NCBI GenBank assembly: GCA_015143295.1
Contig: CM026557.1
Location: forward strand, 28,491,760 to 28,555,759
Length of the DNA: 64,000 nt
Source of the DNA: Tetracentron sinense
Lineage: Eukaryota; Streptophyta; Magnoliopsida; Trochodendrales; Trochodendraceae
Reading direction: 5' to 3'
Shown here: piece after piece, positions 3,276 to 61,983 of the stretch
How the letters are laid out: each line of letters begins with the position of its first letter
How positions within the stretch are numbered: the first letter of the stretch is position 1
Notes under the pieces: model-generated
Databases searched by the model: none
Told to the model about the DNA's origin: nothing
The model's input: the letters and a program-made list of their open reading frames with translations, nothing else
Translations under genes and position numbers: made by a program

Positions 3276-3393
3276 ATTCTGAGAGATTTAGAAAGATTTG
3301 CTAGAGCTTGGAACAAAGAAGGGTGCACAAGCAATGGAATAGGGACTTTGGAGGGAAAGATTAGGTTTGAAAAAGTTCGGATTTTGGGGGTTA

Positions 3394-3839: not shown

Positions 3840-5630
3840 CTTCTCAAAGCACTGAACCTATCAGATTATAGAGGTTTTGTAAAGATATCAGCAAGCTGAT
3901 TAATAGTATCAACAAATTCCAAGATAACATTTCCATTTTACACATGATCTCTAATAAAATGATATCTTATTTCTATGTGTTTAGTCTTTGAGTGTTGAAT
4001 AGGATTCTTAGTCATACAAATAGCACTTGTGTTATCACACTTAATAGGAATTTTAGTATAGATAAGTTTAAAATCTTCTAGCTGTTGTTTCATGTAGAGA
4101 GTTTGAGCTCAACAAAGTCCAGCTGCCATGTACTCAGCCTCAGCTGTGGATAAGGCCACTGAATTTTATTTCTTACTAAACCATGAAACAAGAGAATGTC
4201 CTAAAAAGTGACAAGTTCCACTAGTACTTTATCTATCAACTTTGCATCTAGTAAAGTCTGCATCTGAATAGCTTATTAGATCTAAGTTTGTGTCCTTTGA
4301 ATACCATAAGCCTAAATCAATTGTTCCAAGTAAGTATCTAAAGATTCTTTTTACAGCAATTAAGTGAGATTCTTTTGGACAGGATTGGAATCTTGCATAA
4401 ATGCAAACACTGAACATAATGTCAAGTCTGCTTGCAGTGAGATACAAAAGGCTTCCAATCATGCCTCTATAGAGTTTTTCATCAATACTTTTCCCTTTTT
4501 CATCCTTATCAAGTTTGGTTGATGGACTCATAAGAGTATCCATTATTTTAGTGTTTTCCATTCCAAACTTTTTAAGTAGTTCTTTAGTATATTTAGCTTG
4601 ATTAACGAAAGTTCCTTATTTGGTTTGTTTGATTTGAAGTCCTAAGAAAAATGTTAATCCACCCATCATACTCATTTCAAATTCTTTTTGCATTGTTTTA
4701 GCAAACATTCTACAGAGAGATTCATTTGTTGATCCAAATATGATGTCATCTACATAGATTTGGATTATTAGCATATCATCATTTTTGGTCATTATGAATA
4801 AATTTGTGTCAATTTTACCTCTTGTGAATCCGTTTTCAATTAGGAAGCTACTTAGCCTATCATACTAAGCTCTTGGAGCTTGCTTTAATCCATATAAGGC
4901 TTTAGTTAACTTAAATACATGATTAGGAAATTTATGATTTTCAAAACAAGGAGATTGATTTACATAAACTTCCTCATTGATATACCCATTTAGAAATACA
5001 CTTTTTACATCCATTTGATATAGTTTAAATTCTTTATGACTAGCAAATGCAAGTAACATTCTTATAGCTTCTAGTCTAGCAACCGGGGCAAATGTTTCAT
5101 TATAATCTATTCCCCCTTCTTGGTTGTAACCTTGAGCTACTAATCTTGCTTTATTTTTAACTATATTCCCATTTTCATCCTTTTTATTCCTAAAGACCCA
5201 TTTTGTTCCAATAATAGATTTGTCATTTGGTTTAGGTACTAGATCCCAAACTTGATTTCTATCAAATTGATTTAACTCTTCTTGCATAGCAATGCCCCAC
5301 GAGTCATCTTCAATAGCTTCTAAGGCATTTTTAGGTTCAATTTGACTTAGGAAAGCAAGATTCATTAGATTTCTTCTTGTTCTAACCTCTTGTTCCATAT
5401 TACCAAGTATTAGATCCTTAGGGTGATCTTTTATTAATTTCCAAGCTTTAGGAAGTTGATAAGATTCTTCATTTTCAATTTCTTCTTCATTATCTATTTC
5501 AATGGAGTTGTTACTTGATTTTTCTTTTTCTTGATCATTTTTATTTTCTTTGTTAATTTGTAAATTTGATATTGCTTTTGGAAGATTATCAATTTCATCA
5601 TCCATATCAGTATTGATTTTGTTAAAAGGA
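3840..5630 (-). pseudogene. pol: Sirevirus-like pol, reverse transcriptase and RNase H part (broken)
   Basis: Copia RT is readable in pieces. The N-terminal block around 5605-4865 has KWVFR, RLVAQGYNQ, FAPVARLE, QMDVKSVFLNG and YGLKQAPRA. The catalytic YVDD lies near 4741-4756. The RNase H part has a DAD motif near 4240 and a STAEAEYMA block near 4130, and ends near 3840 with the usual ADIFTKPL region. Stop codons and small frame changes separate the blocks, for example within YGLKQAPRAWYD near 4865 and near 4620, so it cannot give a full protein. About 560 bp separates its end from the env-position ATG; that gap holds the candidate promoter. Confidence 0.85.
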
Positions 5631-5639
5631 TTTGATTCA

Positions 5640-6900
5640 TCAAAAATTACATGAATTGATTCTTCAACAATTAATCATTTCTTGTTAAGCACTCTATAAG
5701 CTTTGCTATTAGTAGAGTATCCTAAGAAGATTCCTTCCATAGATTTAGCATCAAATTTCTTAAGATGTTTATCATTAAGTATAAAGCATTTACATCCAAA
5801 CACCTTTAAATAACTTATATTAAGGATTCTTCCATTCCAAAGCTCATAGAAAGTTTTATTTAGTTTGCTTCTTATAACAACTCTATTAGTTACATAACAT
5901 GATGTGTTAATGGCTTCAGCCCCAAAATAATTTGGTAATTTATTTTTATCAAGCATTGTTCTAGTCATTTCTTGAAGAGATCTATTCTTTCTTTCTACTA
6001 TACCATTCTATTATGGAGTTTTAAGTACTAAAAAATTATGATTAAAACCATTTTCATCACAAAATGATTCAAGTTCTTTATTTTTAAATTCTCCTCCTCT
6101 ATCACTTCTTATGTTGTTAATAGAATAACTTTTTTTCATTTTGAACTCTTTTACAAAACTTTTTAAATAGAGAGGGTGCTTCATTTTTATGAGAAAGAAA
6201 TAGTACCCATGAGTATCTTGAAAAATCATCCACTATAACAAAAGCATAAGTTTTTCCAGCTAGGCTAGTTACTTTATTTGGACCAAAAAGATCCATATGC
6301 AAAAGTTCTAAGGGCCTAGTGGTAGAAATCATTTTCTTGGTTTGAAATGAAGATTTTATTTGTTTTTCAAGTTGACAAGCATCACAGATTTTGTCTTTGA
6401 TAAATTTAGTTTTAGGTAATCCTTTAACTAATTCATTCTTAGTGAGTTTAGACAAAAGATCTATACTAGCATGTCCTAGTCTCCTATGCCATAACCAGCT
6501 AGCTTCATCTATAGCAGAGAGACATATCATGTTTTGAGATTTAAGTTCATCAAAATCTAAGGTATAAACATTTTCATTTCTATGTGCTACAAATAAAGTA
6601 TTTAGATTATCTTTATCCTTAATCATGTAGATATTTGACTTGAATGAAACATTCAGTCCCTTATCACAAAGTTGACTAATACTAATGAGATTATGCTTGA
6701 GTCCATCAACAAGTAGTACATTCTCAATAAAAAAATGATTTATTTTTACCAATGTTACCTATGCCAATGATCTTCCCTTTAGCATTGTCTCCAAATGTTA
6801 CATGACGGCCATCCTTTGGAGTGATTGATGCAAATAGTTTCTTGTTCCCGGTCATATGCCTTGAGCATCCACTGTCCAAGAACCATGTTGTCTTGGAAGT
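5640..6900 (-). pseudogene. pol: Sirevirus-like pol, protease and integrase part (broken)
   Basis: On the minus strand the protease motif DSGCSRHMTG is near 6850-6885. It is followed by the GAG-pre-integrase zinc-binding region (H..H..C..C around LWHRRLGH and CDACQLEK, 6370-6500) and the integrase core, with MDLFGPN, the VDDFSRY block and the RSDRGGEF block, then the conserved post-core part to about 5675. Several stops interrupt it; one is a CAA to TAA change within the conserved TPQQNG motif near 6005. Integrase lies before RT, as in Ty1/copia. Confidence 0.85.
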
Positions 6901-13600: not shown

Positions 13601-14947
13601 TGGTGAGTAGCGCTCGGGGTCAGTCGAGTAGTTCTTCAGAGAAAAGGACTAGGACTGCACCGTACCAGTTCTCCCAGCCGATGTCGGCTCAGAGACCTTC
13701 TTTTGCGCCTCAGGCACCGCGTCCTACGGCATCGCAAGCTACGAGGGTTATGCCTCCGGCTTCCTCCGCATCGCAGACATTTGAGGAGTGCGCCGTATGT
13801 GGTCGTCGGCATAAGACTGGAGATTGCCGAAGAATGTCAGGTGGATGCTTCCACTGTGGCGAGATGGGCCATATGATTCGAGATTGCCCGCGCAAGCAAT
13901 CACAGTCTGGATCACAGGGAGTTCGGCCTCCAGGCAGGCATAATTCACTTCAGGGGTCTTCATCTCAGGCCTCTAGATCCTTGCAGCCTACCCAGCAGCC
14001 TCGTCAGGCAAACCAGGGCAGAGTCTTTGCCATGACTGATAGAGACGCACAAGCATCTGATGATGTTGTGTAAGGTACGCACGAACTAGTCCTTGTCAAA
14101 GTTCTAATATTACCATGATATGTTTGTATCTATATATATCCTATGTGGTGTTTTGCGATGTTTGTATCTATATGTACAGTTGTGTTATAACTGAGATGAT
14201 TCAAATTCTCAGGTTCGTTGCTCGTAAATGAATGTTTGGCAAGAGTGTTGATAGACACAGGATCCACTCACTCGTTCGTTTCACCAAGCTTTGCCAAAGG
14301 CTTTACGTCCGAGCCAAGCAAGCTACCTAGGGAGTTGTCCATTTCGACTCCATTGGGAAAATCTATTGAGACAGATAAAGTGTATCCGGATAGTGTTGTA
14401 CAAGTCATGCAGCACGAGTTGCCAGTCGACTTGATCCTTCTGGGAATTCAGGATTGGGATTTCGATGTCATCCTAGGTATGGATTGGCTCTCAACTCACC
14501 ATGGACACGTGGCGTGTTTCGAGAAAGTGGTGCATTTTAAACCCGTGGGGTTAAAGCCGTTTCATTTCAGGGGACTTCAGAGAAGAGACATTGCTCGCTT
14601 TGCAGCTCTTAGTCTCGAGGGTGTAGAAGTGCGAGACTCCACACCCATTCCAGTGGTATGTGAGTATATGGTGTTTTTCCGGAAACCTTGCCGGGATTGC
14701 CTCCCGATCGTGCAATCGAGTTTGCGATTGAGCTAGCTCCAGGCACAGTTCCGATTTCAAGAGCTCCGTATAGGATGGCCCCTATTGAGCTTAAGGAGTT
14801 AAAAGAGCAGTTAGAAGAATTGCAAGGCCTTGGTTTTATCCGGCCAAGTGTTTCACCTTGGGGGCTCCGGTTCTCTTCGTGAAGAAGAAAGATGGATCAA
14901 TGCGTATGTGCATTGATTACAGGCAATTGAACAAGGTCACGATCAAG
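13601..14947 (+). pseudogene. Tekay/Del-like gag-pol fragment with the gag/pro intron
   Basis: The piece is homologous to the young element at 51890-61983. It starts in the C-terminal half of Gag, with double zinc knuckles (CAVCGRRHKTGDC and CFHCGEMGHMIRDC), and continues to GRVFA..ASDDVV. A TAA then falls at 14071-14073, directly before the donor. After a 138-bp intron-like segment comes protease ([11 protein letters not shown]) and the start of RT ([28 protein letters not shown]). Frameshifts lie near 14670 and 14870, and the homology stops abruptly at about 14947. It appears embedded between the Athila 3' LTR and the Athila 3' non-coding region, with no LTR of its own. Confidence 0.8.
14075..14212 (+). 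other. Intron-like segment between gag and protease (decayed copy)
   Basis: The donor AAG|GTACGC is identical to that of the young element and the acceptor is TTCTCAG|GT. Removing 138 bp joins the Gag frame (phase 1) to [12 protein letters not shown] and the protease in frame, the same phase and position as at 55932-56064. The inside is AT-rich and clearly diverged from the other copy. Confidence 0.75.
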
Positions 14948-17094: not shown

Positions 17095-17862
17095 CTAAAA
17101 GGCATACTTGAGTGTTGTCGGAAGTGGCTTTAACTCAAGTTTAGGTGGAGCTTCTAGGGAAGGGATGGCAGGGACACTAGAAGTAGTCGATAATGGCTCT
17201 TTTCGGGTTTTCCATGGAGGAAAATCCATCGGAGGGGTAGAAATAAAAATAGTATTTACCTCCTCAATGGATCCTTCGATATCGAAGTCCTCAAAACCGA
17301 AATGAGTAAGACGAGCCTCTAATGGATCTTCACTTAAAATAAATGGAAGGGCATCCTCAACTGGTTCTTCTATCAAGTCAACTAAAAAACATTTCTTTTC
17401 ATCCGGTGGTTGATTAGAGGCATTGAAAATATCAAGCCTGACATTCATGTTTCCGAAAGACACATCCATCACCTCAGTTCTACAATTGATACATGCATTG
17501 GCAGTAGCCAAGAATGGGTGACCTAAGATGACAGGGATTTTTCTTTTAGGATTATGAACCGGTTCCATATCAAGGACGAGGAAGTCAACAGAAAAATAGA
17601 ATTTGTCGACCTTGATTAGGACATCTTCAATCACCCCACGAGGTATTTTAAGAGATCTATCTGCTAAGTGCAAAATGACTGAAGTGGGGCTAAGCTCTCC
17701 TAAACCGAGCTGCTCATATACTGAGAAGGGGAGCAAATTGACAATCGATCCTAAATCAAGGAGTGTCCGATCAATGGAGTGATCTCCAATGACACAAGAA
17801 ATTGTAAGGGCACCCGGATCTTTGAACTTAGGAGGAGTAGAATGTTGCAAAATAGAGCTCAC
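17095..17862 (-). pseudogene. Athila-like protease region
   Basis: A 255-codon open segment continues from the gag C-terminus without its own clear start. It has the retroviral-type aspartic protease signature in a changed form, DLGSIVNLLPFSVYEQLGLGEL, where families normally have D(T/S)G(S/A)S. PVILGHPFLATANACINCRTE is the second conserved part. The Thr to Leu change beside the catalytic Asp argues against activity. Downstream it runs into the RT stub. Confidence 0.75.
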
Positions 17863-44813: not shown

Positions 44814-45940
44814 ATGCCTAAAGGCGTTCCTACCGGATCTTCTACCTCCCAAGGACAAGATGGCATGTCTGAGATGCTCCAGGTTTTACGAGGCATGTCA
44901 GAAGTTATGCACCAGCAACAAGAGGCGATGCAGCAACAAGCCGCCATGGGGCAGCAAACTCCATTGCATCAGGCTAGGACAGAAGAGCATTGCATGATGA
45001 TGGCATTGAGAGAGTTTAGAAGGCTGAACCCACCGGTGTTCAAAGGAGAACCCAACCCTGTAGAAGCCCAAAAGTGGGTTAAGCAAATTTGTAAGGTGTC
45101 GGACATCTTAGGGACGACGGACCAGTAGAGGACGTCCTTGGCATCATATATGCTCAAGGGAGACGCGGATTTTTGATGGGACTCGATTAAGAGAACTCGT
45201 GATGTCAGGGTTATGACTTGGGATCAGTTTGAGGAAGTCTTCTATGAGAAGTACTTTCCTGAAGCTATTAGAGACCAGAGGATGCGAGAGTTTTTGGATC
45301 TAATACAGAAAGGTATGACTGTTAGCCAGTATGAGGTAAAGTTCGTAGAACTGTCCCGTTTTGCACCACACCTAGTTGCGACAAAGGAACTAAAGTCAAA
45401 GAAGTTCCGACAGGGTTTAAGGCCTTCTATTCGAGAGAAACTCATTGCAGTCAGTATTCGCACGTATTCTGAAATGGTAGAGAGAGCCCTATTGGTAGAG
45501 GGAGAACTAGAGGATATCAAGAAGATTCAAGACAATAGCTGGAGAAGTCAGGGTAGAAACCAGAGAGAGGATCAACAGAGAAATGATCCCAACAAGAGAC
45601 AAAGGACCATTCAGCCGCAACAACAATTTAGTCAAGGACTAAACATTAGGAACCAACAAAATGGTTGTCAAGATAAGACATGTTATGGGTGTGGCCAGAG
45701 GGACATATCATGAAGGACTGCCCGCGTGGAGGTGCACAACAGATGCAACATGGACAAGGATTCCAACAGCAGCAACCGATGCGTCCACAATATCTGCAAC
45801 AACAGCAACTACCCTATCAACCACCACCACCTCAACAACAGTTTTAGCAGAGACCTCAACAGTAGATTCAGCAGAGACCTCAGCAGCAGTTACAACAGAG
45901 GCCTTAACATCAGCAACAGGACTGTAATTGGAGACCTAGG
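44814..45940 (+). pseudogene. gag: gag of the decayed Tekay-like element
   Basis: ATG at 44814 starts MPKGVPTGSS, followed by a Gln-rich coiled stretch. Next come the Gag core REFRRLNPPVFKGEPNPVEAQKW, a TAG at 45126, a TGA within the ADFWWDS-like block at 45174, and the second core part TWDQFEEVFYEKYFPEAIRDQR..MTVSQYEVKFVELSRFAPH (45213-45380). CYGCGQ..GHIMKDCPRG (about 45680-45725) is the zinc knuckle, crossed by a frameshift. A Gln/Thr-rich linker follows. Unlike the young element, Gag leads into protease without any intron-like gap. Confidence 0.85.
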
Positions 45941-46702
45941 GATCAGGGTCGAGTGTTTGCTTTAGTCCAACTAGACGGCGTGGCCCAAAATACTGTGGTG
46001 GAAGGTACTTTTCTAGTGTATAATTATTGGGCTAAGGTTTTACTTGATCTGGTTTCTACACATTCTTTCATATCAACATCCTTTGCATCTATGTTGGGTC
46101 TGGAGTTCGAACCCCTTGAATCAGCTTTGTGTGTGGCTACTCCAGTAGGAAATAGTGTAGAGACCGATAGGATATGTTGGTCTTGTTCTATTCGAATAGG
46201 AGACCAAGATTTTATGATGGATCTAGTTCTCCTAGGAATGTTTGAGTATGATGTACTCCTAGGTATGGATTGGTTTGTAGCCTATCATGCTACGATGGAT
46301 TGTTTCAGGAAGAGGGTCTCTTTTCGTATTTTTGGAGGACCAGTGTATCATTTTTATGGCTATAAGAATGTTTCTTCCTCGCTTCCAAATTTGGAACCCC
46401 GAATTCATCGATCAAAAGATTTGGGGTATTCGAGTTTCTTAGCTCATGTGATTGATGAAGAGGATGAAGAAAAATTGATAGATCATGTCCCAATTGTTCA
46501 TGATTTTCTAGATGTATTTCCAGAAGAGTTGCCTGGTTTGCCTCCTAGAAGAGGATTGGAATTCGTAATCGAAGTACAGCCTGGAATGGCTCCAATATCC
46601 ATTGCACCCTACCGCATGGCACCTATTGAGCTCCAAGAGCTGAAGGAACAACTCCAAGATCTCCAGGATAAGGGCTTTATCCGGCCTAGCACCTCACCCT
46701 AG
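45941..46702 (+). pseudogene. pol: Protease and RT N-terminus of the decayed Tekay-like element
   Basis: The frame reads GRVFALVQLDGVAQNTVVEGTFLVY, straight from the Gag end into the protease. The active site is changed (LLDLVSTHSF; the family has DTGSTHSF or similar). VLLGMDWFVAYHA and [25 protein letters not shown], then [10 protein letters not shown], lead into RT. The TAG at 46700 replaces the Trp of the SPWGAPV motif (TGG to TAG). The continuous junction is the control for the intron seen in the other two copies. Confidence 0.85.
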
Positions 46703-47860
46703 GGAGCTCCAGTTTTATTTGTGAAAAAGGACGGTACTCTTCGTCTCTGTATAGACTATCGTCAGTTAAATAAGATGACCATAAAGAATAGATATCCGTT
46801 GCCATGAATAGATGACCTATTTGCTCAATTAAAGGGATCCCGATTCTTTTCAAAGATTGATCTTCGATCGAGATACCATCAGTTGAGTGTAAAGGAGGAG
46901 GATTTTTCCAAGACGGCTTTCCGCACTCGCTACGGATATTTTGAGTTTCTAGTTATGCCTTTTGGATTGACAAATGCTCCAGCAGCTTTTATGGACCTAA
47001 TGAACCAGGTGTTCAAGCAATACTTGGACCAGTTTGTAGTAGTGTTCGTAGACGATATCTTGATCTACTCGAAGACTCGAGAGGAGCATGAGCAACATTT
47101 GAGGATTGCACTACAGACTTTAAGAAATCACAAATTGTATGCAAAGAGGAGTAAGTGTGATTTTTGGCTTACGAAAGTGCAATTTCTAGAACATGTAATT
47201 TCGGAGGATGGTATCTCGGTGGACCCAGCGAAGATTGAGGCCGTTCTGAACTGGGATAGACCAAAGAATGTGTTTGAGATCCGAAGTTTTCTAGGACTGG
47301 CAGGATATTACCGAAGGTTTGTGGAAATTTTTTCTCGTCTAGCAACTCCCATGACTCACCTAACCAAGAAGGGAGTAAAGTTTGAGTGGAACGAGGAATG
47401 TGAGCAGGCCTTCCAGGAGTTAAAACAAAAGCTTACTCCGCTCCAGTTCTCATTGTACCGGCTAGTGGAGAAGGTTATGTGATCTATAGTGATGCATCTT
47501 TGAGGGGTCTTGGGTGTGTACTAATGCAGGAAGGTAAAGTAGTGGCCTATGCTTCTCGACAGTTAAAGAATGATGAACAAAAATATCCCACTCATGATTT
47601 AGAGTTGGTGATGATTGTGTTTGCCTTGAAGATCTAGCGACATTATGGTGAAAGGCTTGAAGCATAATCTGACCACAAGAGTTTAAAGTATATATTCACT
47701 CAGAAAGAGTTGAACTTGAGGCAGAGAAGGAGGATGGAGTTCCTTAAGGACTATGACTTCACTCTACATTACCATCCGAGGAAGGCGAATGTGGTGGCAG
47801 ATACTTTGAGCAGAAAGTCTCAAGGACTAATAGCTAGACTAGCTTTGCAAAAATGAAAAA
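46703..47860 (+). pseudogene. pol: RT and RNase H of the decayed Tekay-like element
   Basis: RT blocks: [23 protein letters not shown] (46715-46775), a TGA for Arg in the PRIDDLF motif near 46806, [12 protein letters not shown], the catalytic [12 protein letters not shown] (47045-47080), and [12 protein letters not shown] (47290-47325). RNase H follows in a shifted frame after about 47440, with [23 protein letters not shown] and TLSRKS. A TAG replaces Trp in the KIWRHY motif near 47636. Confidence 0.85.
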
Positions 47861-49380
47861 TGTTAGAAACGATCGAGGACTTTGATATATATGTGGGGAG
47901 GCATAATACTGGGGCCTATGTGTTCAACTTGACAGCTCAATCGACTCTAGTCCAGAGAGTGATTGAGGCACAACAGAAGAACCGAGAGTTGGAGGATGGA
48001 CAGATAGAGATTGAATCAAGAAGTACACCTAAGGATTATGTAGTGCATTCAGATGGCAATTTACGATTTTTAGGGAGACTATGGGTACCGAATGATTCTC
48101 AGTTGAGAGAAGATATCCTTAGTGAGGCTCACCGTTCGAAGTACACCATCCACCCAGGAGTTACTAAAATGTATAGAGATCTAAAGCGTCAATTTTGGTG
48201 GAAGGAAATAAAAAAGGATATTGCAGAGTACGTGGCCAGATGTCTTACATGCTAGCAAGTGAAGGCAGAGCATCAGAGGCCTGCGGGAATGTTGCAATCA
48301 TTGCCTATTTCATAATGGAAGTGGGAGCACATCACTATGGATTTTGTATCTGGGTTGCCGAGGACTTAGAAGGTTGAGAACGCAGTTTGGGTAGTAGTAG
48401 ATAGATTGACCAAGTCGACTTACTTTCTGGGGATGAAGATCACTGATTCTTTGAACGCTTTAAGTAGACTATATATCTGAGAGATCGTAAAATTGCACGG
48501 CATTCCGTTATCGATCATATCTGACAGAGATTCACGCTTTACTTCACAATTTTGGCAGAGCTTATAGAAAGCCTTAGGAACACAACTTAACTTCAATACT
48601 GCATTCCATCCTCAGACGGACGGGCAGTCTGAGAGAGTTATTCAGATCTTGGAGGACATGTTGAGAGCTTGTGCTTTGGATTTCAAGGGTAGCTGGGTTG
48701 AACACTTACCGTTGGCAGAGTTTGCCTACAACAACAGTTTTCAAGCGAGTATTGGAATGGCACCATATGAAGCACTATATGGGAGACCTTGCAGATCTCC
48801 TATCTGTTGGGTAGAAGTTTGAGAGCACGCATTACTCGGACCAGAGTTGATTCAGGAGACCACTGAAAAGATTCATCTGATTCGAGACCATTTAATCATT
48901 GCAGAAAGTCGTCAGAAGAGCTATGCTGATCAACGGAGAAGACCTTTGGAATTACAAGTTGGTGACCATGTGTTCTTACGAGTGACCCCACGTAAGGGTG
49001 TGTTTCGGTTTGGTAAAAAGGGGAAGCTATCTCTGAGATTCATTAGACCTTTCGAGATCCTCCAGAGAGTAGGAGTTGTGGCTTATGAGTTAGCTCTACC
49101 GCCACAATTTTCAGGAGTACACGATGTGTTTCACGTGTCCATGTTGCGCAAGTATGTACCAGATCCAAAACACATCATTGAATGGCAGGAAGTGGAGTTG
49201 TGGGAAGATGCAACATATGAGGTGAGACCAATCCAAATCATAGATACCAAGGAACAAGTGATGCGCACCAGGACCATTCCTATGGTTAAGGTGTTGTGGC
49301 AACGACATGATTGAATGAGGCAACTTGGGAGTTAGAGTCTGAGATTCGCAACAAATATCCAAACTTATTCGACAACAGAG
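47861..49380 (+). pseudogene. pol: Integrase and chromodomain-like tail of the decayed Tekay-like element
   Basis: The H2C2 zinc block (HRSKYTIHPGVTKMYRDLK..YVARCLTC) is at 48130-48250. The core has MDFVSGLP, VVDRLTKS, ISDRDSRFTS and HPQTDGQSERVIQILEDM (48340-48660), with a GPELIQ..RQKSYADQRRRPLE segment and a GPF/Y-type RPFEILQRVG. The last part (IQIIDTKEQVMRTRTIPMVKVLWQRHD) is the chromodomain-like end, with a frameshift near 49313. Many stops are CAG to TAG, CGA to TGA or TGG to TAG. Confidence 0.85.
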
Positions 49381-51158: not shown

Positions 51159-51889
51159 TGTAGTGCAAAACCCCGAATCTTCATTTCACTAAGTAGTGAA
51201 TAGTGTGTGAACAGTGTTCAAGTGTAGTCTTGTACACTTGAGGGTTTATGCTAATGAAAATATTTGGATATATGGTGTACATGTGTTGACGGGTATATAT
51301 AGCCTAAAGGAGTGTGTTTTCAGTGTATAAGGTATTGGAATTGGATTGGAGAAGGTCCAAGTGGTGGAAAATGGGTTTTGCAGCAAAAATAGGGGAGCAC
51401 CAATCGCTCGGTAATAACACCGATCGACCGGTCATCTACCAATCGCTCAGTAGCTATCGACTGGTCAAATATTTTGTATGGTGAAAAATTTCAGAGATGG
51501 TGTTTTCAACCGATCTCTCGGTCGAAACCACCGATCGCTCGATCTGACCACCAATCGATCGGTTATACGCAGATTTTCTTCATTAAGGGTTTTTAAGTCT
51601 TTAACCAACACCCCTTTGCCTATAAAAGGCTCAGCTTGTGCCTTAGGGTTTCAGAAACCATTAGTGCATAAATTTGAGAGAGATTTGAGAGGAGAAGAAA
51701 GAGAGAGGCTAGGGTTTACTCAAGCTTGAAGGAAAGATCAAGTTTCTTCCCTTCTTTGGTATTTTTCAACTACGAACTCGAGGTTTTCACTTCTCCAAGC
51801 TTTTGGAGTCAACTTTATCGATTTCATCAAGATAGATACATTCTACTACCAATCTTATGATAATAATATTTACCACATGATGTTCTTCG
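51159..51889 (+). repeat. Older gypsy LTR, left part, split by the young element
   Basis: It starts TGTAGTGCAAAACCCCGAATC, similar to the TGTAGCACCCCGGACTTTTT start of the young LTR. It has an ACCGATCG(A/C)CCGGT-type palindrome cluster (51400-51565), then a TATA box (CCTATAAAAGGC, 51619-51630). The right part is at 61989-63094. The CTTCG at 51885-51889 is the target duplication of the inserted element. Confidence 0.75.
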
Positions 51890-52100
51890 TGTAGCACCCC
51901 GGACTTTTTCATCTTTAATGAATGGCACCTTCGTAGCTAATTGGCCGTTTTTGTAGTCAAATTAATAAATAAGGGAGAAATCGGAAATTCCGAAACGTCA
52001 GAAATGTTCGTTTTCGAAAGACGAACCCAACGCAAGTTGAATCGTCAAAATCCGACGAGCGAGTCAAAAGATATGGTCAAAACAGTCCAGACATACAGAA

Positions 52101-52287
52101 GACCGATCGCTCGGTCCAGTCAGCGATCGATCGGTCCATAACCGATCGATCGGTAGCTATCGCACGGTCAGAAATTTTGTATGGGGAAATTTTCCAGAGA
52201 GTGAGTTTTTGACCGGTCGATCGGTCATAAACACCGATCGCTCGGTAGGCAACCGATCGATCGGTCATAACCGCCGATCGCTCGGTC
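52101..52287. repeat. Cluster of ACCGATCGATCGGT-type palindromes
   Basis: Seven or eight exact or near palindromes occur at about 52101, 52123, 52141, 52211, 52233, 52252 and 52273. The same cluster is in the 3' LTR (59718-59904). It lies about 60-250 bp upstream of the likely core promoter, suggesting an upstream regulatory region with dense CpG. Confidence 0.85.
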
Positions 52288-52680
52288 TTCGTGTTTTTCA
52301 GAATTTTCATTAAGGGCTTTTTCGTCTTTTGGGGGTTAAACCCTTCCTCCTTAAGGCTTGCTCGAGCCTTTAGGGCTTCATTCACAGAACTTAAGGGATT
52401 TTGAGAGATAGAGAGAAAGGAGAAGGGGATTTGCAACTAGGGTTTTCCATTGGAGAAGAAATCAAAGGGGTTTAAGAACCCTAGCTCACCCCAACTCGAG
52501 TTGCTTCAAGTTCAAGGCTCAAGCTCGTGTGGGGACTCATTCTCCAAGCTAGGGCAGCAACCCAAGCACGTTTTTGAAAGGGGTTTCTTCCCCAACTCAA
52601 GCTTCTTTCAAGCAAAGGCTTCATCTTTCAAGTTGGAGCTTCAATCAAGGCCCCTACCAAGGATCAAGCCTTGATTCAAG

Positions 52681-53956
52681 GTTAGTACACCCTACTAACT
52701 TACCCTAACAATAAATCTAGGTTTTTCCTTATGAAATGTGATTTATGCTATTATGTTTGCCTCCCATATAAAATGTATCATCTCCAATGAACCTAAATAA
52801 GATAAGAAAAAAAAGTATGGATGTGTGTGGGTGTTGATGTGGCGATTGGATGCCGAGGTGTATGTTGGGTGATGTGTGTGATGGAAATGGTGGATGGGTA
52901 CTTTACCAATAATGAACATACCTTGATTTTGGATGGAAAGTAGGCACTAAAAAGAAGAAGATGAACCATTAAGGAACCTTGCATGCTATGTGTTTGACAA
53001 AATGCCTAAACTAGGAATAAATGGACTTAATGAAGAAAATGGAAATAGAAATTGTGTAAATTCCTTAGGAATGATAAATTGCTCAAATGTGCTATATGTT
53101 GCCTAAATTCTCATACCACTATGTTAAGGATTGAAATGTCATATTCTTGTGATCCGCCCATTCAAGTATGTCATCATGATTACCACTATTGACAAGCACA
53201 CAAGCACGCATGCATGCATGAATTGGGTTTTCCAAGAGTAATTGTGCATAATAAAGCAAACAAGGAAACAAGAACACGACAAGGAGGTTGGTAGCCCAAG
53301 GAAGGGTGCTAGCCTCTGGCTCACAAGTGAAATGAAACAAGAACACGACAAGGAGGTTGGTAGCCCAAGGAAGGGTGCTAGCCTCTGGCTCACAAGTGAA
53401 ATGAAACAAGAACATGACAAGGAGGTTGGTAGCCCCAGGAAGGGTGCTAGCCTCTGGCTCACAAGTGAAATGCAAGAGAGAACATGACAAGGAGGTTGGT
53501 AGCCCAAGGAAGGGTGCTAGCCTCTGGCTCACAAGTGAAATGAAACAAGAACATGACAAGGAGGTTGGTAGCCCAAGGAAGGGTGCTAGCCTCTGGCTCA
53601 CAAGAGAAAGGGAATAAGAACATGACAAGGAGGTTGGTAGCCCAAGGAAGGGTGCTAGCCTCTGGCTCACAAGTATACAAGTCAAGAACAAATCAAGACA
53701 TGAAATACAAGACAAGACACGATATACATGCATGATTTGACCGAGACACGAAAAAGGTTTCCGAGACATGAGTTTTACCGAGGTTTTTGCATTCATATAC
53801 GCACGTCAAGATATGGCTATGTATCTTATGCTTTCATTTGCTTTAAATTTATATCTTGTATTGCTCACTGTTGTTATGCTTTCGCTATTGTTATGGTTAG
53901 CTAGTAGTTTGTACTCGCTGAGTATTCCATGCTCAGCCGTACTTTTATGTCGGCAG
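52681..53956 (+). other. Possible leader intron within the LTR
   Basis: ATTCAAG|GTTAGT is a good plant donor, kept as TCAAG|GTCGGT in the solo LTR at 35091 (minus strand). The possible acceptor is GTCGGCAG|GT at 53956, which is conserved in all related LTRs here. An intron of 1276 bp would remove the tandem repeats. The acceptor has only a weak pyrimidine tract. Splicing is inferred, not shown. Confidence 0.35.
53272..53674. repeat. Tandem repeat in the LTR, six units of 69-70 bp
   Basis: Units begin GAACA(C/T)GACAAGGAGG at 53272, 53341, 53410, 53480, 53549 and 53618 and end CTGGCTCACAAG. The 3' LTR has the same array at 60889-61291. Open frames on both strands through it are by-products of the period being a multiple of three. 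Confidence 0.95.
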
Positions 53957-53958
53957 GT
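53917..53958 (+). promoter_or_regulatory. Conserved LTR hairpin followed by CGGCAGGT
   Basis: GCTGAGTATTCCATGCTCAGC can form a hairpin and is followed 12-13 bp later by CGGCAGGT. The same block is at 61534-61575, 62606-62650, 35505-35548 (antisense, perfect 9-bp arms) and, decayed, 27562-27605. The region around it differs between families, so the block seems to be under constraint. Its role is unknown; a structured RNA or splice-related element is possible. Confidence 0.6.
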
Positions 53959-54370
53959 ACTGTGGATGTCCTCGACCCCGAGCCTTGGGTCGAGGAGGAG
54001 TATGTAGAGGAGAGGGAGCCACCTATCCCATGGCAGTCTCAGGAGGATGGGGACTTAGATGTGTGGCCATACCTCGACTACTGTTGAGAGGAGAGGGTTA
54101 GAGAGTTCCTTTTTGTATTTTGATAGGTGGGCATGTCCACCTTTACTTTGATTGTATTTGGTATATGTTAACTTGGAATACTATTTGGAGTTATAGAAGA
54201 AAAGAAAAGTTGGCTTATGCTTCCGCACTTATGTTTAGTTTCCGCGCTCTGATTTTCATTGAATTATATTATGTTTAGCCTCTTGCATTACAGGATGGTT
54301 TGGCAGGTACACGTAGTTACCTCTAAAGTATCCCTTAACTCCTAGGGGGTATTTTGGGGCGTGACAGAAG

Positions 54371-54382
54371 TGGTATCAGAGC
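54371..54382 (+). promoter_or_regulatory. Primer binding site, initiator Met tRNA
   Basis: TGGTATCAGAGC, four bases after the LTR, is the exact complement of the 3' end of plant initiator tRNA-Met. Confidence 0.9.
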
Positions 54383-54694
54383 TCTAGGTATTAGAGTCCC
54401 TAAGGTCACTTAGATGATTGAACAAGGTATTAGAATCACCTTAGAGAGTTGTATTCCAAGTATAGACTAACAAGTTAGTCTTAGTCAAAATGGGTTGAAC
54501 TTCAACCGAACATAGAGTCCTACACTAGGAACACGGATTGTATGTTATGCTATTGTGTTACATACCATATGTGCATTAATTGTGTTGTGCTTATTAAGTA
54601 CGCTTGATGAATATGTATTGAGCGAATTGCGAAAGTTGTACTAATTGTGTATCCAAGTTAGACTCATGTTGTATTGTCGTTCTCAGGAGAAATC

Positions 54695-55948
54695 ATGAGA
54701 CGCAATACCCGGGGTCGCGGGTACAACACGAGGGGTAATGGAGGTGATGCTCCATCGGGTGATGATCAACCCGACTTTGCCCAAGCATTCGCATCCATAG
54801 CCGAGACCTTGGCTATGTTGGCGGCAAGGCAACCGGCCACTCCGCCTAATGCGGCACTTATACCGGCTCCTCCTAACCGAGCCCAAGCCGGGATAGAAGC
54901 TTTCCGGAGGATGAGGCCTCCAACTTTTTGTGGAAGCATTGATCCACTTGTTGCCGAGGGTTGGATTCGGCAACTTGAGAAGATATTCTCGGTTTTGGCA
55001 CCTACGGAAGTAGAGAGGGTCACATGGGCTGCCTTTATGCTTGAAGGCGAGGCCGACCATTGGTGGAAGTCTGCACTTCGGACCCGAGAGTTGACCCGGC
55101 AAGGCCAAGAATGGACATGGGGAGAATTCTTGGACGTTTTCTACAAGAAATACTTTCCGGTTGGGATGAAAGAAAAGAAAGAAATTGAATTTATTACCTT
55201 GGAGCAAGGTAATATGTCTGTAGCGGCTTACGAAGCCAAGTTCTCAGAGCTATCTCGATTTGCTCCACACATGATAGCTACCGAGGCTATGAAGGCCCGG
55301 AAATTCGAGAGGGGGTTGAAGGCCTACCTCAAGGATCGTGTCTCAATGTTCCGACATGAGACATACTCAGAAGTTGTGGACAAAGCATTGTTGGCCGAGT
55401 CTAATTCCGAAGAGTTCTTTAAGAGAAGAGGAATAGAGAAGGGACAGTCTAGTAGTTCAGGGGAGAAGAGAGCTAGGACTATGTCTTATCAGTCCGCAGG
55501 GCCGGCTCAGTCACAGAGGATGTACTCGGCACCGCAGGCCCCCCGCCCTTTTTCTCCACCGGCTTTTCGCCCGGCTACCTCGTATGCTCCTCGCCCCGCA
55601 GTGACTCAGGCTACGGGTTATACTCCTCCCACTTATTCACATGATGTCTGCACCCTTTGTGGAAGGAGGCATCCAGCAGGGGAATGTCGGAAGGCTACAG
55701 GAGGCTGTTTTCATTGTGGCGACCAGGGCCACATGATTCGGGATTGTCCCCGACGTCTAATGCCAGCTCAGTCTTCGGGGAGCAGGCCCCCGATTAGGCA
55801 GACATCTCAGCCTAGCTCTTCTCAGGCTTCGAGGGCCTCACAGTCTGCCCGGCCTCCTCGCCCAGCCACTCAGGGTAGAGTTTTTGCTCTATCGGAAAGA
55901 GACGCACGTGCATCCGACGATGTCGTGCAAGGTACGCGAGAATTTTGA
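54695..55948 (+). CDS. gag: Gag of the young Tekay-like element, 417 aa (unspliced form)
   Basis: I chose ATG at 54695 (MRRNTRGRG); the frame stays open further up to 54674 but has no ATG there. The Arg/Gly-rich N-terminus is followed by the Gag core: FRRMRPPTFCGSIDPLVAEGW, RVTWAAFMLEGEADHWW, FLDVFYKKYFP and YEAKFSELSRFAPHM. A Pro/Ser-rich linker leads to two zinc knuckles (CTLCGRRHPAGEC and CFHCGDQGHMIRDC, about 55640-55750) that bind RNA. The frame runs five codons into the intron-like segment and ends GTREF-stop. Gag should assemble the particle. Confidence 0.92.
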   Translation: MRRNTRGRGYNTRGNGGDAPSGDDQPDFAQAFASIAETLAMLAARQPATPPNAALIPAPPNRAQAGIEAFRRMRPPTFCGSIDPLVAEGWIRQLEKIFSVLAPTEVERVTWAAFMLEGEADHWWKSALRTRELTRQGQEWTWGEFLDVFYKKYFPVGMKEKKEIEFITLEQGNMSVAAYEAKFSELSRFAPHMIATEAMKARKFERGLKAYLKDRVSMFRHETYSEVVDKALLAESNSEEFFKRRGIEKGQSSSSGEKRARTMSYQSAGPAQSQRMYSAPQAPRPFSPPAFRPATSYAPRPAVTQATGYTPPTYSHDVCTLCGRRHPAGECRKATGGCFHCGDQGHMIRDCPRRLMPAQSSGSRPPIRQTSQPSSSQASRASQSARPPRPATQGRVFALSERDARASDDVVQGTREF

Positions 55949-56064
55949 TTTTAAGTTGTATAAAATTTTGTGGTTTGTTATGCGATTAGTTATACTGAGG
56001 GTTACCTATGTATGATGCTTGTTATTATTTGAAATCTACTTATATTAGTTACTTAATCGCACAG
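55932..56064 (+). other. Candidate 133-bp intron between gag and protease
   Basis: Donor CAAG|GTACGC, acceptor ATCGCACAG|GC, AT-rich inside, with a branch-like TTACTTAAT about 9 bp before the acceptor. Gag and Pol frames differ; removing exactly this segment (phase 1) gives [20 protein letters not shown] without a break. Unspliced RNA ends Gag at 55948. The same intron position is found at 14075-14212, and the intronless relative at 45953 reads VVEGTFLVY across the same point. Confidence 0.85.
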
Positions 56065-59000
56065 GCGCTTTATTAGTGAACGAATGTCTCGCTCGAGTGT
56101 TGATAGACACAGGATCCACTCACTCTTTTGTCTCCCCAAGTTTTGCAAAGGGCTTTTCGACTGAGGCTACTCCGTTGGAACGGGAGTTGACCATTGCAAC
56201 TCCACTCGGCAAGTCGGTTGATACGGATAAGGTATTCAGGGATAGTGTGGTTCAAGTGGGGGAGAATGAATTGTTAGCCGACCTTATCGTCCTGGGTTTC
56301 CAAGATTTAGACTTTGACGTCATTCTTGGTATGGATTGGTTGGCAAACCATCACGGGCATGTTGCGTGTTTTGAAAAGATGGTGAATTTCAAGCCGGAAG
56401 GGGGTAAGCTTTTTCACTTCCGAGGATTAAGAGAGAGGGACATTGCTCGCCTCGCAGCCTTGAGTATAGCACACCCAGAAGCACAAAACTCATCGGCTAT
56501 TCCAGTTGTGAGTGAGTTCTTAGATGTGTTCCCGGAAGAACTTCCCGGATTACCTCCTGATAGAGAGATCGAATTCGCTATAGAGCTTGCTCCGGGTACC
56601 GCTCCGATTTCAAGGGCACCATATAGAATGGCCCCTATAGAGCTTGAAGAATTAAAGAAGCAGATTGAGGAGTTACAACAACTTGGTTTCATCCAACCAA
56701 GTGTCTCTCCGTGGGGAGCTCCGGTTCTCTTTGTGAAGAAGAAGGACGGGTCTATGAGGATGTGTATAGACTACCGTCAGTTGAACAAGGTAACTATCAA
56801 GAATCGTTATCCCTTGCCAAGGATAGACGACTTGTTTGACCAACTGAAGGGAGCGAGATTCTTCTCCAAAATTGATCTTAGATCGGGGTATCACCAATTA
56901 AGGATCAAGGCGGAAGATGTTCAGAAGACGGCTTTCAGGACTCGGTATGGGCATTACGAGTTCCTTGTCATGCCTTTTGGGCTGACGAATGCACCGGCGG
57001 CATTCATGGATTTGATGAACCGGGTGTTCCGATCTTACTTGGATCGATGCGTGATTGTATTCATTGATGACATTTTGGTGTATTCCCAGACACGGGAAGA
57101 TCACGCACGAGACCTCCGCCTCGCTCTGGAGATGTTGAGAGAGCATAGGCTATATGCCAAATTGAGTAAGTGCGAGTTCTGGTTAGAGAAGGTCGCATTT
57201 CTTGGACATGTGGTGTCGGCCGAGGGCATTTCTGTAGATCCAGCCAAGGTTGAGGCAGTCATGAGTTGGGAGAGGCCCAAGAGCGTCACGGAGATACGTA
57301 GTTTCCTCGGATTGGCAGGCTACTACCGGAGATTTGTGGAGGGATTCTCCAGTTTGGCTGCACCTCTCACCTACTTGACAAGGAAAAATGCAAAGTTCAG
57401 TTGGAGTGACCGATGTGAAGTAAGTTTCCAAGTGTTGAAGAAATGCCTCACCACAGCCCCTGTCCTTACTGTGCCATCTGGACCTTTTGGGTATGAGGTG
57501 TACAGCGATGCCTCGCATGTTGGACTCGGGTGTGTCCTAATGCAACACAAGAAGGTCATTGCCTATGCGTCAAGGCAGTTGAAAGAGCATGAAAAGAACT
57601 ACCCCACTCACGACTTGGAGCTTGCGGCGGTCGTGTTTGCACTTAAAATTTGGCGACATTATCTGTACGGGGTGGAGTTCTATGTGTACACGGACCACAA
57701 GAGCCTCAAGTATCTCTTTTCCCAAAAAGAGTTAAACTTACGACAACGGCGTTGGATTGAGTTCTTAAAGGACTACGAGTGCACTATCCAATATCACCCG
57801 GGAAAAGCAAATGTGGTGGCAGACGCTCTGAGTAGGAAACCATCGGGGTTGTTGGCTCACATGTTGGTGCGGGAATGGAGACTGTTAGACGATTTGGCAA
57901 ATCTAGACATCAGTGTGAACGATTCTGTCCGCAGTCCGGTTTTGGCAAATGTTACAGTTCGGCCGTACCTTATAGACTTGATCCAGGAGTATCAAGCCAC
58001 AGACACTGACTTGTTGGCTTTCCGGGATAAGGAAGTGGCCAAGGGTAGTACGGACTTCTCTCTCACTAGCCGAGGTGCTATTACATTCAAGGGAAGGCTT
58101 TGTGTCCCAGCCAATGCAGACCTTCGGAGAGAGATTATGGACGAAGCTCACCGGTCTAAGTATACAGTGCATCCCGGGGGGACAAAGATGTACCGGAACC
58201 TCAAGAGTCACTTTTGGTGGCGAAACATGAAGAGGGAGGTTGCGGAATATGTGGCACGGTGTTTGGTATGCCAACAGGTGAAAGCAGAGCATTTGAGACC
58301 AGCGGGTCTTTTGCAGTCTCTCCCTATTCCCGAGTGGAAATGGGAACATATCTCTATGGACTTCATCGTGGGATTGCCAAAGACGGTTAAGAAGACCGAT
58401 GCTATATGGGTAGTTATTGATAGACTCACGAAGTCCGCTCATTTCTTACCATACCGGACTACATTCAACTCCAACCAGTTAGCAGAACTATACATCAAAG
58501 AAATAGTCCGATTGCATGGGGTGCCAGTGAGTATTGTGTCGGATAGAGACCCAAGATTCACATCCAGGTTTTGGAAAAGTTTTCAAGGTGCAATGGGCTC
58601 CCGATTAGACTTTAGCACAGCTTTCCACCCACAGACCGACGGGCAAACCGAGAGGGTGAATCAGGTTATTGAAGATATGCTCCGAGCATGTATGCTAGAC
58701 TTCAAGGGAAGTTGGGAAGATCATCTACCTTTGGTGGAATTCGCTTACAACAATAGTTACCAAGAAAGCATACAAATGGCGCCTTTCGAGGCTTTGTACG
58801 GAAGGAGTTGCAGATCCCCGTTGTATTGGGATGAAGTGGGAGAAAGAAAGATTTTGGGCCCCGAGTTAATTGAACAAACCGCGGATAGGGTCAAGCTTAT
58901 CCGGGAGAGGTTGAAGACCGCACAAGATAGACAGAAGAGCTACGCCGACAACCGAAGGAGGGATCTTGAATTCCGAGTCGGTGATTTTGTGTTTGTAAGG

Positions 59001-59396
59001 ATTTCACCGACCAAAGGTGTTATGCGATTCGGGAAGAGAGGCAAGCTTAGCCCGAGATATGTGGGTCCGTTCGAGATCATTACTCGAGTTGGCGAGGTGG
59101 CTTACCGTGTTGCTTTGCCCGCTCACATGGCGGCGGTCCACAACGTGTTTCATATCTCCCAGCTTCGGAAGTACATCCCGGATCCTTCTCACGTCATCGA
59201 GCTTGATCCGGTTGAGATTCGAGAGGATCTCACTTTGGTTGAGAAGCCGGTTCATATTTTGGATCGAAGAGACCAAGTACTTCGCAACAAGACTATTCCG
59301 CTAGTTCTCGTGCAATGGCAACATCACGCTCGAGAAGAGGCTACATGGGAACGTGAGGCCGAAGTCAAGGCAAAGCACCCCGAGTTGTTTGAATGA
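56065..59396 (+). CDS. pol: Pol of the young Tekay-like element (protease, RT, RNase H, integrase, chromodomain)
   Basis: About 1109 codons, open throughout, with no own ATG at the expected N-terminus, so it needs the spliced Gag-Pol reading (about 1522 aa in all). Numbering from the GTG at 56076: protease DTGSTHSF near residue 11; RT with CIDYRQLNK and catalytic FIDD near 329-332; RNase H with YSDAS and TDHKSLKYL; integrase H2C2 zinc block near 690-730; core D near 761, D near 822 and E near 865; then a GPFEI module and a chromodomain-like tail (last 50 residues, [16 protein letters not shown]). All key residues I looked for are present. The chromodomain can direct integration to marked chromatin. 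Confidence 0.93.
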
Positions 59397-59490
59397 TTTT
59401 ATGTATGACTTGTAATTTTGTTTCAAATTGTTATGCTAAGTGGTTTAAATTGTAAAGCACGCATTGTCCAAATTTCGAGGACGAAATTTT

Positions 59491-59506
59491 TGTAAGGGGG
59501 GGAGAA
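59491..59506 (+). promoter_or_regulatory. Polypurine tract of the young element
   Basis: TGTAAGGGGGGGAGAA directly before the 3' LTR; the purine core AAGGGGGGGAGAA primes plus-strand DNA synthesis. Confidence 0.85.
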
Positions 59507-61983
59507 TGTAGCACCCCGGACTTTTTCATCTTTAATGAATGGCACCTTCGTAGCTAATTGGCCGTTTTTGTAGTCAAATTAATAAATAAGGGAGAAATCG
59601 GAAATTCCGAAACGTCAGAAATGTTCGTTTTCGAAAGACGAACCCAACGCAAGTTGAATCGTCAAAATCCGACGAGCGAGTCAAAAGATATGGTCAAAAC
59701 AGTCCAGACATACAGAAGACCGATCGCTCGGTCCAGTCAGCGATCGATCGGTCCATAACCGATCGATCGGTAGCTATCGCACGGTCAGAAATTTTGTATG
59801 GGGAAATTTTCCAGAGAGTGAGTTTTTGACCGGTCGATCGGTCATAAACACCGATCGCTCGGTAGGCAACCGATCGATCGGTCATAACCGCCGATCGCTC
59901 GGTCTTCGTGTTTTTCAGAATTTTCATTAAGGGCTTTTTCGTCTTTTGGGGGTTAAACCCTTCCTCCTTAAGGCTTGCTCGAGCCTTTAGGGCTTCATTC
60001 ACAGAACTTAAGGGATTTTGAGAGATAGAGAGAAAGGAGAAGGGGATTTGCAACTAGGGTTTTCCATTGGAGAAGAAATCAAAGGGGTTTAAGAACCCTA
60101 GCTCACCCCAACTCGAGTTGCTTCAAGTTCAAGGCTCAAGCTCGTGTGGGGACTCATTCTCCAAGCTAGGGCAGCAACCCAAGCACGTTTTTGAAAGGGG
60201 TTTCTTCCCCAACTCAAGCTTCTTTCAAGCAAAGGCTTCATCTTTCAAGTTGGAGCTTCAATCAAGGCCCCTACCAAGGATCAAGCCTTGATTCAAGGTT
60301 AGTACACCCTACTAACTTACCCTAACAATAAATCTAGGTTTTTCCTTATGAAATGTGATTTATGCTATTATGTTTGCCTCCCATATAAAATGTATCATCT
60401 CCAATGAACCTAAATAAGATAAGAAAAAAAAGTATGGATGTGTGTGGGTGTTGATGTGGCGATTGGATGCCGAGGTGTATGTTGGGTGATGTGTGTGATG
60501 GAAATGGTGGATGGGTACTTTACCAATAATGAACATACCTTGATTTTGGATGGAAAGTAGGCACTAAAAAGAAGAAGATGAACCATTAAGGAACCTTGCA
60601 TGCTATGTGTTTGACAAAATGCCTAAACTAGGAATAAATGGACTTAATGAAGAAAATGGAAATAGAAATTGTGTAAATTCCTTAGGAATGATAAATTGCT
60701 CAAATGTGCTATATGTTGCCTAAATTCTCATACCACTATGTTAAGGATTGAAATGTCATATTCTTGTGATCCGCCCATTCAAGTATGTCATCATGATTAC
60801 CACTATTGACAAGCACACAAGCACGCATGCATGCATGAATTGGGTTTTCCAAGAGTAATTGTGCATAATAAAGCAAACAAGGAAACAAGAACACGACAAG
60901 GAGGTTGGTAGCCCAAGGAAGGGTGCTAGCCTCTGGCTCACAAGTGAAATGAAACAAGAACACGACAAGGAGGTTGGTAGCCCAAGGAAGGGTGCTAGCC
61001 TCTGGCTCACAAGTGAAATGAAACAAGAACATGACAAGGAGGTTGGTAGCCCCAGGAAGGGTGCTAGCCTCTGGCTCACAAGTGAAATGCAAGAGAGAAC
61101 ATGACAAGGAGGTTGGTAGCCCAAGGAAGGGTGCTAGCCTCTGGCTCACAAGTGAAATGAAACAAGAACATGACAAGGAGGTTGGTAGCCCAAGGAAGGG
61201 TGCTAGCCTCTGGCTCACAAGAGAAAGGGAATAAGAACATGACAAGGAGGTTGGTAGCCCAAGGAAGGGTGCTAGCCTCTGGCTCACAAGTATACAAGTC
61301 AAGAACAAATCAAGACATGAAATACAAGACAAGACACGATATACATGCATGATTTGACCGAGACACGAAAAAGGTTTCCGAGACATGAGTTTTACCGAGG
61401 TTTTTGCATTCATATACGCACGTCAAGATATGGCTATGTATCTTATGCTTTCATTTGCTTTAAATTTATATCTTGTATTGCTCACTGTTGTTATGCTTTC
61501 GCTATTGTTATGGTTAGCTAGTAGTTTGTACTCGCTGAGTATTCCATGCTCAGCCGTACTTTTATGTCGGCAGGTACTGTGGATGTCCTCGACCCCGAGC
61601 CTTGGGTCGAGGAGGAGTATGTAGAGGAGAGGGAGCCACCTATCCCATGGCAGTCTCAGGAGGATGGGGACTTAGATGTGTGGCCATACCTCGACTACTG
61701 TTGAGAGGAGAGGGTTAGAGAGTTCCTTTTTGTATTTTGATAGGTGGGCATGTCCACCTTTACTTTGATTGTATTTGGTATATGTTAACTTGGAATACTA
61801 TTTGGAGTTATAGAAGAAAAGAAAAGTTGGCTTATGCTTCCGCACTTATGTTTAGTTTCCGCGCTCTGATTTTCATTGAATTATATTATGTTTAGCCTCT
61901 TGCATTACAGGATGGTTTGGCAGGTACACGTAGTTACCTCTAAAGTATCCCTTAACTCCTAGGGGGTATTTTGGGGCGTGACA
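59507..61983 (+). repeat. 3' LTR of the young Tekay-like element, 2477 bp
   Basis: Same length as the 5' LTR (offset 7617 bp) and the same sequence in my reading, including the palindrome cluster (59718-59904), the tandem repeat (60889-61291) and the hairpin block (61534-61575). Confidence 0.95.

Follow-up and report, generated by a model that had tools for sequence, protein, structure and literature searches.

How plant Ty3/gypsy retrotransposons make more Gag than Pol is, to our knowledge, poorly known. CRR, one of the elements of this superfamily considered below, is a chromovirus of the CRM clade. Here we analyse a stretch of 64,000 nucleotides (nt) of Tetracentron sinense DNA (contig CM026557.1, positions 28,491,760 to 28,555,759; hereafter the window), which contains a chromovirus-like element whose gag and pol frames are separated by 133 nt. 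Comparison of natural copies indicates that this gap, at 55932-56064 of the window, is very probably a spliceosomal intron.

Papers cited here by accession were available as excerpts, and what is said of them is confined to those excerpts. Plant long terminal repeat (LTR) elements are described as generally intron-free, with Ogre and EVADE as exceptions (PMC12786077); elsewhere BARE1, copia, Bagy2, Ogre and CRR are listed as spliced (PMC3735527). Most groups encode a single open reading frame (ORF), and Bianca and Ogre are named as having two with a region between them (PMC6317226). Ogre, a Ty3/gypsy element of the Tat lineage, resembles the present one in having a short intron between polyprotein frames, spliced in a subset of transcripts to give the entire polyprotein (PMC6317226). 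It belongs to a different lineage, however, and its intron lies between protease and reverse transcriptase (RT) rather than upstream of protease, between Gag and protease, where unspliced RNA would yield Gag without protease. In BARE1 (Ty1/copia, barley), a 104-nt alternative intron near the end of gag likewise sets the relation of Gag to Pol, but the order is the reverse of the one proposed here, since spliced RNA gives only Gag and unspliced RNA the polyprotein (PMC3735527). Alternative splicing of EVADE (Ty1/copia, Arabidopsis) likewise provides, in addition to the full-length RNA, a short one for Gag; there splicing removes the protease domain to give Gag, whereas here it would give Gag-Pol (PMC12786077). 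The present element does not follow the BARE/EVADE type of Gag splicing, as its join opens a Gag-Pol frame (1536 amino acids in copy L009, described below) and not a Gag-only one. Bianca (Ty1/copia) shares the arrangement of two ORFs, with an intervening region averaging 172 bp, but is of the other superfamily, and only the Ogre region is called a shown intron (PMC6317226). Transcripts of CRR, a gypsy element, are spliced as well, so that chromoviruses already offer a case of splicing; in CRR, however, it removes RT and creates two ORFs, whereas here 133 nt would be removed and two ORFs joined (PMC3735527).

A first-pass annotation of the window treated an intron at this position as not known to be described for chromoviruses. 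The open-licence literature agrees, in that no report of a Gag-protease intron in a chromovirus was found there, by title or start of abstract, among the papers listed, in one case 15 of 4,927; this absence is weak evidence, because open-licence papers only were covered. The excerpts of PMC9289625, PMC2864245 and PMC3485330 likewise describe none.

The gap and the copies that lack it

The features on which the argument depends are as follows.

54695..55948, + strand: gag frame of the unspliced RNA; its final codons and TGA (55946-55948) lie inside the intron and give the tail GTREF*
55932..56064, + strand: probable intron of 133 nt, phase 1, GTACGC...CACAG; precisely absent from natural copies, at the same site in family 2, with stops in all three frames
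56065..59396, + strand: pol exon with protease, RT, RNase H, integrase and a chromodomain-like end (by Pfam)
14075..14212, + strand: counterpart of 138 nt in the same codon, homologous to the above intron and carried by a decayed member of a second family; TAA in the codon preceding the donor G

As the first-pass annotation had it, gag and pol occupy different frames on either side of an AT-rich gap (29% GC, 44% T) that begins GTACGC and ends CACAG, and cutting the gap out leaves a continuous frame from Gag into protease, the joined CAAG/GC being in phase 1. The gap falls inside a codon, that for the Gly of a VVxG motif at the Gag-protease border. A third related element in the window, decayed and located at about 45003-49044, reads VVEGTFLVYNYWAKVLL at the site, gapless; since it encodes the motif unbroken, the putative intron sits within a protein motif. 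CTTAT at 56039..56043 (+ strand) is, we assume from its letters, a candidate branch point. An open join taken alone was rejected as evidence for an intron and is weak by itself, because 9 of 50 neighbouring GT..AG pairs also yield an open fusion into Pol. What raises the gap above chance is the combination of a diverged family-2 intron in the same codon, a gapless third element, and copies lacking exactly 133 or 138 nt.

Those copies, found in both the family of the main element (family 1) and the second family (family 2), are the strongest evidence for an intron, which they strongly support. When the family-2 protease was searched against the window's own 1.16-Gb genome and the best 150 of 12428 candidates were scored, copy L009 stood out with a frame of 1536 amino acids, against a commonest length of 1114, and a junction without exactly the 138 nt. 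Joined-junction patterns allowing up to 3 mismatches, with which exact joins only are findable, matched 11 places of family 1 and 17 of family 2 (L009 among the latter); all 28 are gap-free at the site, and reversed controls gave 0 places. Because such patterns detect nothing other than exact joins, we therefore made a more neutral census with one pair of exact anchors common to both states, counting gaps of 150-180 nt and of 17-47 nt. The longer class occurred at 549 places and the shorter at 10, and at each of these 10 the gap measures 32 nt, precisely what splicing would leave; their sequences assign nine to family 2 and one to family 1. Reversed controls of both classes gave 0. Eleven intron-less copies were checked for LTRs and flanks, and nine have matching target-site duplications (TSDs), eight of 5 bp by script and that of L053 by eye; none was seen for L043 and L047. 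The LTR pairs of L055 and L056 each contain a single difference, over 1880 and 1873 bases, respectively, and those of L009 are 98.4% identical. Intron-less insertions of barley BARE were sought by polymerase chain reaction and none was found (PMC3735527); here they exist, and suggest that spliced RNA leaks into new insertions.

Two of the intron-less copies, L060 and L061 (G000:C7), lie about 16 kb apart on opposite strands and have the rare junction variant GGATCG in common; they may represent a duplication or two related insertions. Six pattern matches were obtained in IMG/VR, with no relative among them.

A search of the window's own genome with 251 bp around the gap returned, among the best 40 of 2410 candidates, 13 matches at 100% (the window's included) and 27 at 99%. 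GT...AG ends and the frame-joining phase also occur in 8 further family-1 copies and in most family-2 copies. Among the first places listed of the 549 in the census, the introns begin GT throughout, by eye, with donors that are mostly GTACGC and in variants GTAAGC, GTATGC or GTACAC. Across 28 family-2 copies the mean pairwise difference is 0.039 in the intron, as against 0.014 and 0.010 in flanking exons of equal length, the exon-2 figure being lowered by the choice of copies by protease identity; divergence of the intron is thus some 3-4 times that of the flanking exon. A site that is conserved while the sequence within it diverges is what spliceosomal introns display, and with the precise intron-less insertions it strongly supports the first-pass reading of the gap as an intron.

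The two families can also be compared directly. The family-2 intron in the window reads AAG/GTACGC...TCTCAG/G, and the exons of the families are 69-70% identical, exon 2 without gaps. In a first comparison the introns were 65% identical, against a shuffle mean of 64%; a score-based test on other copies gave z of 3.2 to 4.2, with 0 or 1 of 200 shuffles as high, these being letter and not dinucleotide shuffles. The introns of the two families are thus weakly but significantly alike. A stretch of about 31 nt near the start of exon 2 (GAGTGTTGATAGACACAGGATCCACTCACTC, at 56094-56124 and 14243-14273) is identical between the families, in exons that otherwise differ by about 30%; it may be a splicing signal within the exon or a remnant of sequence exchange between the two.

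History of the probable intron and alternative readings

Several observations tell against an old, spliced intron, and we set them out here together with the alternatives that they favour. The acceptor AG is lost in two intron-bearing family-2 copies, L010 and L011. Donors in a diverged family-2 sublineage are GT in 18 of the 20 introns shown, one of the other two being GC and one GA. The anchored census covers gaps of 17-47 and 150-180 nt, and ordinary deletions that leave 48-149 nt would not show in it. The trees carry the remaining difficulties. A first tree of 67 rows (39 with the intron, 28 without) needed 6 changes and placed several intron-less copies basally in both families, a placement compatible with gain of the intron; its sample of intron copies was narrow, because these had been fetched by near-identity. 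With three diverged family-1 intron copies added, which fill just 18-20% of columns, a tree of 69 rows required 9 changes, 5 of them forced by strong branches, and a single clade of the ten family-1 intron-less copies was rejected by the approximately unbiased (AU) test (p-AU 6e-7). A tree of family 2 only (46 rows) required 5 changes, 2 of them forced, and a single clade of the nine young family-2 intron-less copies was rejected (p-AU 0.001). The groups for these tests were named once the trees had been seen, long branches occur in several rows, and the tree model would not hold if RNAs had recombined. L054, which is at L009's place, was omitted from all three trees, L046 from the 69-row tree for its long branch, and W2 from the family-2 tree.

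The alternative that survives best, although we regard it as unlikely, is that copies without the intron represent the original condition, the intron having entered afterwards, either in each family or through exchange between them. The basal position of several diverged intron-less copies in both families (in the 67-row and family-2 trees) is what such a history would leave. Diverged copies bearing the intron nevertheless exist in both families as well, L089-L091 among them, and the diverged family-2 sublineage has an intron-sized gap at 78 places against 2 intron-less ones that have exactly the exon-2 letters of the sublineage (L062 and L063). The resemblance between the introns of the two families also speaks against separate late gains. 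From the rejected single clades, the 78 intron-sized places and the likeness of the introns between families, we conclude that the intron is probably ancient and has been lost at least twice. Under a later gain the gap would still be an intron, and its history alone would change.

Deletion of DNA through microhomology between AGG(T) repeats, which would have produced the intron-less copies from a gap perhaps never spliced, strikes us as more doubtful still. Its attraction is that AGG or AGGT is common to both ends of the intron, so that deletion would leave the same product as splicing, and that in family 2 the exact product, alone of 779, has a 4-nt microhomology. In family 1, however, the exact product has only 3 nt, equalled by 18 and exceeded by 2 of 760 products, and precise copies are found all the same (1 of the 10 in the census). 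Nor does deletion explain why a gap with GT and AG ends lies in the same codon in two families, or how Pol would be produced from an intact young copy.

It is very improbable that the gap is a spacer between two proteins in different frames and that frameshift, readthrough or reinitiation on unspliced RNA yields Pol: the precisely intron-less copies speak against a spacer, all three frames of the gap contain stops, and the protease active site precedes the first Met of the Pol frame. Upstream of 56049, from which the Pol frame stays open to its end at 59396, Pol-frame stops at 56013 and 56046 stand in the way of simple frameshifting, which was rejected on that ground. Read from 56067, the protease DTG is residue 14 and the first Met residue 89, 75 residues beyond it, and AUG reinitiation was likewise rejected. 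Because stops in the gap bar a frameshift and the first Met follows DTG, a working protease is predicted to need the join, non-AUG starts aside.

Proposed mechanism

The sequences establish where the intron lies, how it is bounded and in which phase, that both families possess it, that all three of its frames contain stops, and that precisely intron-less insertions exist. The best explanation, and one that we hold with considerable confidence, is that a group of related chromovirus-like elements inherited a short spliceosomal intron. Unspliced RNA would be translated into Gag that carries a few intron-encoded residues at its end, up to a stop within the intron. All 9 family-1 copies read have, in the unspliced Gag frame, a stop at nucleotides 15-17 of the intron (tail GTREF). 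All 30 family-2 copies, read from the donor codon, reach a stop before the intron ends, and two of them, L010 and the window copy, already have one a codon earlier, immediately ahead of the donor; in L010 it accompanies the mutated acceptor. Unspliced RNA would also be the usual template for reverse transcription, and may be copied preferentially, because 549 of 559 anchored copies retain the intron. In spliced RNA, Gag and Pol would form a single frame from which protease, RT and integrase could be produced, and occasional reverse transcription of such RNA would give rise to intron-less insertions. That transcripts keeping the intron would yield Gag and spliced ones Gag-Pol, as had been proposed in the first pass, follows from the frames; the accompanying claim of ratio control goes beyond them, and we infer only that splicing may regulate the Gag:Pol ratio. 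Retention of the intron would be understandable if, once it is gone, Gag alone can no longer be made by the splicing route.

More tentatively, the Gag-protease intron may have been long kept as a built-in switch, in which unspliced RNA serves as genome and Gag messenger while splicing supplies the messenger for the enzymes. The 10 intron-less copies among the 559 anchored ones, or about 2%, would then record leakage of spliced RNA into reverse transcription, and intron-less offspring, able to make Gag-Pol only, might use the Gag of intron-bearing relatives. If the proposal is true, one RNA makes the shell protein and another the enzymes. The genome seems to keep a record of splicing, in that young, cleanly intron-less elements stand alongside hundreds with the intron, and the question of splicing can thus be tested by ordinary RNA-seq of the source plant.

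The young element and other features of the window

The remaining features of the main element are these.

51890..54366, + strand: 5′ LTR of 2477 bp, 100% identical to 59507-61983, preceded by the TSD CTTCG at 51885-51889
54371..54382, + strand: primer-binding-site-like TGGTATCAGAGC, read from sequence, which we take to be of the tRNA-Met type
59494..59506, + strand: polypurine tract AAGGGGGGGAGAA, read from sequence
59507..61983, + strand: 3′ LTR of 2477 bp, 100% identical to the 5′ LTR, followed by the TSD CTTCG

The element at 51890-61983 is very young, because its LTRs are free of mismatches and the TSD is present on both sides; membership of the Tekay clade, as proposed in the first-pass annotation, is putative. 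Retrotrans_gag, Ty3_capsid and a zinc knuckle all exceed their Pfam cut-offs in Gag, and the order of Pfam domains, protease-RT-RNase H-integrase, is of the Ty3/gypsy type. Two Pfam models of RNase H overlap in a single region (residues 446-570), and a second region, such as characterizes the Tat lineage, was not found by Pfam at E 0.001. A C-terminal chromodomain hit (PF00385) scores 21.8 bits, below the cut-off of 25.1. Both LTRs contain a tandem repeat spaced at about 69 bp (53202-53743 and 60819-61360), and repeated near-palindromes of the type CCGATCGATCGGT were seen by eye at 59720-59910 and in the matching stretch of the 5′ LTR.

The third element of the window (45003-49044), which is intron-less, chromovirus-like and decayed, has identities to the main element of 38% in Gag, 76% in RT and 64% in integrase. 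Other long frames in the window are, by eye, a piece of copia-type RT at 4865-5674 (- strand) and a piece of aspartyl protease at 17095-17862 (- strand); a further one, of 706 amino acids, extends over 1167-3287 (- strand).
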